From Rickettsiales bacterium (GTDB lineage Bacteria; Pseudomonadota; Alphaproteobacteria; Rickettsiales; SXRF01), in NCBI GenBank assembly GCA_021299465.1, contig JAJTHB010000011.1:1-64000 (forward strand): DNA of 64,000 bases, written 5' to 3'. Below, piece after piece: positions 46,425-47,848 of this stretch (positions are counted from its first letter, which is position 1; each line of letters begins with the position of its first letter). Made by a program: the position numbers and the translations under genes. The notes beneath the pieces were generated by a model, which saw only the letters and a program-made list of their open reading frames with translations, had not been told where the DNA came from and made no database searches.

Positions 46425-47042
46425 GTGAGAGATGAAAACGAAAAAAGCTCCGACGTACTGAGCGATCTGCTAAGAGAACATTCAGGCGAGACCATCAGCA
46501 TGCATGATATTACTGAAGGGCTTCGTGATCGAGGCTTTGCAGTATTATTACTACTCTTTGCCTTTCCGATGGCATTGCCATTGCCCTACCCGCCTGGCTT
46601 TAGCTCACTGGTAAGCCTGCCACTGCTTTTTTTATCGATGCAAATGACGTTTGGACGCCAAAGCCTGTACCTGCCAAAGTTTGTTGGCCGTAAAACCATG
46701 AGAACCGAATCATTGCGAGCGGTCATTGGCAAAGTGCTGCCTTATCTACAGAAGCTCGAGCTTTATTTTAAACCTAACCGCGAACATTTTTTCAGTAGCC
46801 GTATGGAGCAATTAATCGGCTTTTTTTCACTAATATTAGCATGCTGTATTCTGCTGCCGCTTTCGGTGCTTAGCAATACGATTCCCGCCGCCGGCATCAG
46901 CATTATGGCCCTTGGCATGTTAGAGCGTGACGGAAGAGCAGTTATCGCTGGTTTTGTGGTCGGGTTAATTGGATTTATCGTTACCATCCTGGCGGTCGCG
47001 GTGATTTTCTTTGGCGCCAAAGCGATTATCAGCGGCCTATGA
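46425..47042 (+). CDS. ExoD-family membrane protein
   Basis: 205 residues of the exopolysaccharide-synthesis ExoD family. N-terminal soluble block SDVLSDLLREHSGETISMHD, then the hallmark GLRDRGFAVLLLLFAFPMAL and PYPPGFSSLVSLPLLFLSMQM near 33-75, and two further hydrophobic regions (about 130-160 and 172-200). ExoD of Sinorhizobium affects exopolysaccharide and alkali tolerance by an unknown mechanism. The start is GTG 46425. It overlaps the phosphatase gene by four bases (ATGA). Confidence 0.85.
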   Translation: MRDENEKSSDVLSDLLREHSGETISMHDITEGLRDRGFAVLLLLFAFPMALPLPYPPGFSSLVSLPLLFLSMQMTFGRQSLYLPKFVGRKTMRTESLRAVIGKVLPYLQKLELYFKPNREHFFSSRMEQLIGFFSLILACCILLPLSVLSNTIPAAGISIMALGMLERDGRAVIAGFVVGLIGFIVTILAVAVIFFGAKAIISGL

Positions 47043-47848
47043 ACGATCAGAAGATCATAGCATTCATGCATAAACTAGCCGATGAGGCAGGCATCATCGC
47101 GCGTCGCTATTTCAGGTCTGGCATCACATCAACACTTAAAGCAGACCAAAGCCCGGTTACACTGGCTGATCAGGAGATCGAGCATAAGATCAGAGAACTC
47201 ATCAGAGGCCATTTTCCTGATCACGGCATTCTTGGCGAAGAAGAAGAAGCGCATTTACCGGATGCACCTTATCAATGGGTGATCGACCCAATCGACGGCA
47301 CACGCGCCTTCATGGCAGGTATTGCTACCTTCACCACACTGATTGCGCTCTGCGAAAATGGCGTGCCGATCACCGGTATCATTGACCAGCCGATCCTGAA
47401 TGAGCGCTGGGTTGGAAAACCTAATAGTGTCATTCCGAGCGCAAGCGAGGAATCTTTGATAGATAAGATCCCTCGACTCCCCCCGCAGCAAGTGCGGGGT
47501 GCGCTCGGGATGACATCCCTTGCCACCACCTCAACCGCCTATTTCACGCCTACTGAAAGAACCGCTTTTGACCTGCTGCAAAAAAATGCGGCGAGCACGC
47601 TGCTCGGCGGCGATGCGTATCTTTATGCGATGCTGGCGAGCGGACATCTGGATGTGGTGGTAGATAGCGGCCTAAAACCTTATGATTTCGCTGCGCTGGT
47701 ACCGGTTGTAACATCACATGGTTGTATGATCACCGATTGGCAGGGAAAGCCGCTGACGCTTGCCTCAAGCGGGCGAGTGCTCGCCGCTCGCACGGCGCAG
47801 TTGCATCATGAAGCGCTTGGTATCTTAAAAACAGCCCAGCCAGTATAG
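47039..47848 (+). CDS. Inositol-monophosphatase-family phosphatase, HisN-like, carrying an in-frame palindromic element
   Basis: 269 residues of the Mg-dependent IMPase fold. Metal motifs are GEEEEAH near 66, DPIDGTRAF near 83 and the late DSGLKPYDFAALVPVV near 212. GIIDQPILNERWVG near 113 is typical of the histidinol-phosphatase (HisN) branch, so the likely job is the penultimate step of histidine synthesis. Residues about 130-159 are encoded by a structured palindrome and replace or interrupt the loop that normally holds a conserved TTFNG-like segment; the frame stays open through it and the rest of the enzyme follows normally. It is coupled to the exoD-like gene, and its 3' end overlaps a convergent gene by 24 bases. 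Confidence 0.87.
   Translation: MNDQKIIAFMHKLADEAGIIARRYFRSGITSTLKADQSPVTLADQEIEHKIRELIRGHFPDHGILGEEEEAHLPDAPYQWVIDPIDGTRAFMAGIATFTTLIALCENGVPITGIIDQPILNERWVGKPNSVIPSASEESLIDKIPRLPPQQVRGALGMTSLATTSTAYFTPTERTAFDLLQKNAASTLLGGDAYLYAMLASGHLDVVVDSGLKPYDFAALVPVVTSHGCMITDWQGKPLTLASSGRVLAARTAQLHHEALGILKTAQPV
47428..47515. repeat. Cruciform palindromic element inside the HisN-like gene (RPE-like)
   Basis: An 88-base structured repeat. The outer stem pairs 47428-47443 with 47500-47515 (16 positions, one G-T). Inside are two hairpins: 47446-47456 with 47465-47475 (one mismatch, eight-base loop) and 47481-47487 with 47493-47499 (perfect, loop GCAAG). All three stems are well formed, so this is a repeat unit, not chance. 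Its translation in the host frame begins VIPSASEESL. The design matches Rickettsia palindromic elements, which insert in frame into genes. Confidence 0.85.

Follow-up and report, generated by a model that had tools for sequence, protein, structure and literature searches.

The palindromic element inside the hisN-like gene described here is, with high confidence, a head-to-head dimer of a TGTC-tagged selfish REP that has spread through its host genome and is kept in frame in a tolerant loop of the HisN protein. The gene lies in a 64,000-nt stretch of DNA (the window) from the genome denoted G000; among the genomes used for comparison, G001 belongs to the same genus and G002–G015 to the same family (f1), and the others represent the same order. 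This order is probably Rickettsiales: HisN of G329 and of the public MAG UBA6187 are identical over the part compared, and Schoen et al. (PMC9352585) assign UBA6187 to the Athabascaceae within Rickettsiales. In window coordinates, the relevant features are:

47039..47848, + strand: intact hisN-like CDS (histidinol-phosphatase/IMPase fold, 269 aa), based on the ORF, Pfam/NCBIfam models, an AF2 model and PDB matches
47411..47533, + strand: HisN loop, after ERWVG to ATTS, occupied by other palindromes in G001, G007, G313 and G321
47428..47515, + strand: TGTC-tagged REP head-to-head dimer, 88 nt, encoding residues 130–159 (S-VIPSASEESLIDKIPRLPPQQVRGALGMT) in frame in hisN
47428..47443, + strand: left outer arm TGTCATTCCGAGCGCA, from arm complementarity
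47500..47515, − strand: right outer arm TGCGCTCGGGATGACA, from arm complementarity
47428..47456, + strand: one REP half-unit with a TGTC tag, stem ATTCC-GA-GC/GC-GA-GGAAT (tandem G.A), GCAA loop and CTT tail, from the sequence and the consensus of 58 half-units
47444..47478, + strand: core inner hairpin (..GAGGAATCTT/AAGATCCCTC..)
47479..47499, + strand: accessory GC hairpin CCCCCCGCAGCAAGTGCGGGG

The outer arms, 16 nt each and 94% complementary, enclose two hairpins, in agreement with the 88-base unit of the original prediction. The minimum free energy of the region 47408–47535 is −62.2 kcal/mol, compared to a mean of −34.9 kcal/mol for dinucleotide shuffles (z = −7.3), and 0 of 200 shuffles fold as stably. 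The half-units conform to a consensus TGTC-ATCCC-GA-GC-loop-GC-GA-GGGAT-CTT, and 54 of the 58 begin with TGTC (51) or CGTC (3). Stems of TGTC half-units almost universally start with AT and span about nine positions with a tandem G.A, loops are variable, and tails read CTT or CTA in all 31 readable half-units, a CCA tail being absent. The two-hairpin layout held only in part, as essentially every copy bears a core hairpin but only about six copies have the second, GC-rich hairpin, located on either side of the core. We rejected this accessory hairpin as a separate family, given that GTCATYCCCGC... patterns gave just two weak matches. An Rfam search of the element returned chance-level matches only, and a known structured RNA was therefore likewise rejected.

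The arm motif GTCATYCYGAGCG, with at most one mismatch, has 71 matches in the G000 genome as opposed to 3 for a reversed control. Pairing of the arm matches gave 29 head-to-head dimers. Identical dimers reside at the end of contig C18 and the start of C34, and at the ends of both C11 and C28, so that the assembly breaks at TGTC repeats and raw pairing slightly over-counts. Removal of two dimers as contig-end duplicates leaves about 27 distinct dimers in the 1.95-Mb genome, a census obtained by pattern searches and pairing that decayed copies may escape. The majority of these copies are intergenic, while six, including the one in hisN, lie in frame within conserved genes. The other five are:

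C9:52082: in-gene copy, PheT
C36:295346: in-gene copy, IleS
C16:42693: in-gene copy, RNase R
C26:45117: in-gene copy, MtaB
C23:15500: in-gene copy, YejF-type ABC ATPase

The entry frame reads VIPS in five of the six genes and LSSR in MtaB. Nine further in-gene copies were found across G001, G004 and G005, giving 15 in the four genomes with HisN included. The element is thus, as anticipated, a dispersed palindrome that can reside in frame. A native or lineage-specific expansion of the HisN loop that is palindromic by chance, and not mobile, would be in line with the varying loop length in the order (23–34 residues, and a 25-residue tandem repeat in G291); however, the matching DNA copies, most of them outside genes, already refute this explanation and the folding z score also argues against it, leaving it a negligible probability.

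The hisN coding sequence starts with ATG, contains no internal stop codon and remains open through the element; the upstream gene (46425–47042) shares 4 nt with its start. Its product matches Pfam Inositol_P (E = 6e-46), and its top NCBIfam model is his_9_HisN (TIGR02067), matched over the full length with E = 2e-73 and a score of 247 bits, below the curated cut-off of 275 bits. The metal-site motifs GEE, DPIDGT and the Asp of PYDF are kept. Relative to the sister species G001, dN/dS is about 0.19 upstream of the loop and about 0.17 downstream. Purifying selection thus acts on the gene on either side of the loop, and on the basis of these values we consider hisN a working gene. The claim of an intact gene with the element in frame was thereby confirmed, and the outcomes that the original prediction had set against itself, an element found only here with its residues present in distant HisN homologues, or a frameshift, did not occur.

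In an AlphaFold2 model of HisN built from 24 sequences, pLDDT is 90 overall and mostly above 90 outside the insert, and drops to 55–74 over residues ~130–159, a stretch flanked by strands 122–126 and 160–163. The model therefore supports placement of the element in a loop of the IMPase fold. Its best PDB matches are Zymomonas mobilis IMPase (4n81; 44% identity) and Medicago HPP (5eq9). We suggest that the insert forms a flexible, translated loop that is probably neutral to the enzyme. Retention of the palindrome for an RNA or cruciform role in the hisN transcript, such as attenuation, processing or transcript protection, would be consistent with the very stable coding-strand hairpins and with the activity in mRNA stability ascribed to REPs elsewhere (PMC3733652). 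Yet no Rfam family was matched, the HisN loops of relatives carry unrelated palindromes or, in most of them, none, and many unrelated genes contain copies at protein-loop sites, not just at 3′ ends; we regard such a role as very unlikely.

Insertion of the 30 residues was not clean. Counted from RW to TTS, the HisN loop has about 28–34 residues in most relatives, as in the other alphaproteobacterial members read (80 loci), and 38 in G000, whose HisN lacks the native loop motif xAGxxTxxNGxxVxTRxC. As this motif is gone from the 38-residue loop, the element replaced native residues. While the prediction that the 30 residues are absent from most relatives was correct, they were not simply added: the native segment of about 25 residues is mostly gone, for a net change of about +9. 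HisN of the sister species G001 also lacks the native loop and carries a different, GC-rich palindrome (CTCCCTCCCCATTAGGGGGAGGG...) at this position, and among the orthologues none with an empty site was close enough for the exact junction to be read.

Other occupants of the HisN loop are CGTC dimers. One resides in G007 (CGTCATCCCCGCGAAGGCGGGG...GGGAATGACA), another in G321, a member of another family, within an otherwise native loop, and a third in G313, whose congener G314 has a decayed copy. On the tree, native-loop genomes separate G007 from G000/G001, indicating that the respective insertions were independent. For the 97 genomes of the order in which HisN was matched, this amounts to at least four events at a single loop. 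Such occupation is not a general property of hisN, as no REP was found in the loops of the other alphaproteobacterial HisN proteins read. In HisN of G291 (locus L240), the loop is expanded by about 90 residues through tandem copies of a ~25-residue unit (QSRFNSDLPQQALLSANSRQTVGDA).

The same reuse is seen in two other enzymes. After KYTDEIFDIP, the IleS loop of G000 is occupied by a TGTC dimer, and G001 and G005 have a GC-rich palindrome at this place. CGTC dimers are present in G006/G010 and in G009. G004 and G033 bear a DUF559 nuclease domain there, bounded by GC-rich palindromes, and G040 a GNAT acetyltransferase-like domain (L273); in G012, G013 and G015, the loop is short and native. In MtaB, G000, G004 and G005 have TGTC dimers in one loop, where G001 and G013 carry a ATTGCGAGG-type palindrome; G009 and G015 show sequence resembling simple repeats at this site, and the remaining genomes are native. 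The reused loops hold at least three palindrome families, and the earlier wording of a "parallel family" was in this respect too modest. Peptides resembling simple repeats (NADNWQLTT, NTQHSTLNTQ, SPTTNHQPPTTH, LAVGSWQ) also occur in loops at L295 and L296 (MtaB of G009 and G015), L075 (ABC ATPase) and L086 (IleS of G000), and may suggest a further class of in-frame repeats.

The lengths of the in-gene dimers follow a rule. Our analysis comprised 85 TGTC dimers besides that of HisN in G000, G001, G004 and G005, with a dimer classed as in-gene if conserved sequence was present on both sides. Dimer length is 2 mod 3 in 14 of 14 in-gene copies, hosted by PheT, RNase R, the YejF-type ATPase, MtaB (two), IleS (two), QueG, an APH-fold kinase, a COX1-like protein, Lnt, TruA, a ValS-like protein and acyl-CoA dehydrogenase; the MtaB dimers of G000 and G004 may go back to a single insertion in a common ancestor. 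The 71 other dimers split 25:24:22 over the length classes (Fisher p = 4e-6 compared to in-gene copies). Avoidance of stop codons was rejected as the whole cause, as the consensus halves permit frame combinations of all three classes; the two combinations in use, VIPS..ARDD and LSSR..GMT, both yield 2 mod 3. A single in-gene length class implies that a fixed number of bases is added beyond TGTC...GACA (1 mod 3; or none beyond GTC...GAC). Such a fixed increment is hard to obtain by random repair and points to a defined insertion reaction. No target-site duplications of 1 or 4 bp were visible at in-gene copies.

The sole exception to the length rule is the HisN dimer itself, whose 88 nt are 1 mod 3. 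All three measurable (T/C)GTC-type HisN inserts (G000, G007 and G321) fall in this class, and we conjecture that they reflect exchange of loop occupants in place. A more general version of this idea, in which occupants are exchanged by recombination or conversion via their (T/C)GTCAT...ATGAC(A/G) ends rather than inserted repeatedly and independently, also draws on the sharing of these ends by types A (TGTC), B (CGTC) and D (ATTGCGAGG-type) and on the MtaB loop, where type A is found in G000, G004 and G005 and type D takes its place in the sister genomes G001 and G013. We consider it possible but doubtful, as the GC-rich type C (HisN of G001, IleS of G001 and G005) does not have these ends, and the native-loop genomes lying between HisN carriers on the tree require at least some insertions to be independent.

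DUF559 (PF04480) comprises Vsr-like nucleases of the PD-(D/E)XK type (PMC12907096). Of 344 genomes of the order, 59 contain DUF559 domains, about 86 in total, and many of these lie within open frames of 300–1700 residues. Inverted copies of GC-rich palindromes flank 30 of 35 DUF559 domains examined, compared to 26 of 4012 random positions (0.65%). According to Pfam, the host's own domains lie on either side of DUF559 in many class I aminoacyl-tRNA synthetases and in DnaE, RecG (as also shown by flanking sequence), Mfd, S-adenosylhomocysteine hydrolase, PriA and Sua5; CarB, HolC, RecO and Pth are further hosts. DUF559-bearing loci, encoding IleS and related synthetases, DnaE, S-adenosylhomocysteine hydrolase, Mfd, CarB, PriA, Sua5 and others, include L320, L322, L325, L326, L338, L339, L344, L348, L349, L351 and L353–L366; the synthetases at L351 and L366 combine DUF559 with an Acetyltransf_3 domain.

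DUF559 is a candidate driver for the GC-rich palindrome class; where such palindromes occur without the nuclease, in the loops of HisN in G001 and of IleS in G001 and G005, they resemble non-autonomous versions. In the literature searched, we found no link of DUF559 to such insertions or repeats. Could the nuclease mobilize all palindromes, including that in HisN? The enrichment of inverted palindromes around DUF559 and the presence of the same palindromes, free of the nuclease, in HisN and IleS loops would agree with this possibility; however, the flanking repeats are of type C, not the TGTC type, and G000 lacks DUF559 despite its many TGTC dimers. We therefore consider it unlikely, and because DUF559 is absent from G000, the nuclease gives no direct account of the TGTC element. 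A RAYT/IS200 transposase was rejected as the driver as well, since Y1_Tnp (PF01797, RAYT/IS200-type transposase) is absent from G000 and from its TGTC-rich relatives G001, G004 and G005. Elsewhere in the order, contig C1 of G026, a 2.0-Mb single-contig genome, contains at least 64 near-identical IS200-type transposase genes (64 of 148 candidates scored).

Among known systems, the TGTC element is closest to the CGTC REPs. Di Nocera et al. (2013; PMC3733652) described the families CGTC-1 to CGTC-4, RPE-6 and RPE-4 included, and found no dedicated transposase for them. Shared traits are the CGTC/TGTC end tag, a stem starting with AT, head-to-head dimers, an alphaproteobacterial host range, occasional intragenic location and the lack of a dedicated transposase. 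The TGTC element differs in its CTT/CTA rather than CCA tail, the tandem G.A in its stem and the accessory GC hairpin of some copies. As the CCA tail is absent, it falls outside the four described families. It belongs with, or adjoins, the CGTC/TGTC REP superfamily. It resembles REPINs and the RAYT-mobilized GTAG REPs in forming dimers of imperfect palindromes and in its non-autonomous spread, but lacks the GTAG tag, and no Y1_Tnp gene accompanies it in the four TGTC-bearing genomes.

RPEs, described by Ogata, Claverie and co-workers as cited in PMC3733652 and PMC10969869, are Rickettsiales palindromes located in frame in housekeeping genes. Likewise, the elements described here are short, reside in frame in Rickettsiales housekeeping genes, are tolerated in loops and form several families per genome; they differ from RPEs in that unrelated families reuse one loop, in-gene copies fall into a single length class, and a nuclease gene is part of one family. 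This comparison with the ten RPE families was made by description. Two genomes sampled from family f20, which probably corresponds to the classical Rickettsiaceae, yielded no match to the TGTC motif. The proposal of a family parallel to RPEs is correct as regards an in-frame dispersed palindrome, but the design is not a separate one, given that the CGTC superfamily holds RPE-4 and RPE-6 and that the order itself is Rickettsiales.

Inteins and homing endonuclease genes likewise introduce a nuclease domain, in frame, into conserved essential proteins. The DUF559 elements share this arrangement (IleS, DnaE, RecG and others), but they have no splicing domain according to Pfam, bear palindromic ends, and the domain apparently stays in the host protein. 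Intragenic REPs and RPEs are already known. To our knowledge of the literature searched, three features are new: sister genomes that fill one loop with unrelated families, the single length class of in-gene copies, and a palindrome-flanked nuclease in essential genes.

Based on these results, we suggest the following course of events for the TGTC element. Movement would require a trans-acting enzyme, or host replication or repair acting on the folded single strand, and this trans-acting or host process would add a fixed increment upon insertion of the folded unit. The majority of in-gene insertions would be lost, and the survivors would be those whose frame stays open in a tolerant loop; in-gene copies may gather in the same loops because only such insertions survive. 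Selection for tolerance alone may be enough to explain loop reuse, and target preference may contribute. In hisN, the element would have inserted, or re-inserted, in a stop-free reading frame into a loop between two β-strands of the phosphatase, where extra residues are tolerated. Loop occupants would be replaced over time, and HisN has probably seen more than one event, which fits both the lost native residues and the exceptional length class.

With moderate confidence, we propose more broadly that certain surface loops of Rickettsiales housekeeping proteins are recurrent landing pads for unrelated mobile palindromes, with the HisN element as one occupant. One class would be autonomous by virtue of a DUF559 gene between its terminal palindromes, inserting in frame into essential genes as an extra domain in an intein-like manner but without splicing. 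Since 2000, it has been an open question how palindromes that encode protein, as RPEs do, move and why genes tolerate them. Sister genomes in which the same enzymes carry different palindromes at identical codon positions bear on RPE-type movement, and the repeat-flanked nuclease domain provides a candidate enzyme for at least one palindrome class. The findings also show one way in which essential proteins gain new loops and whole domains.
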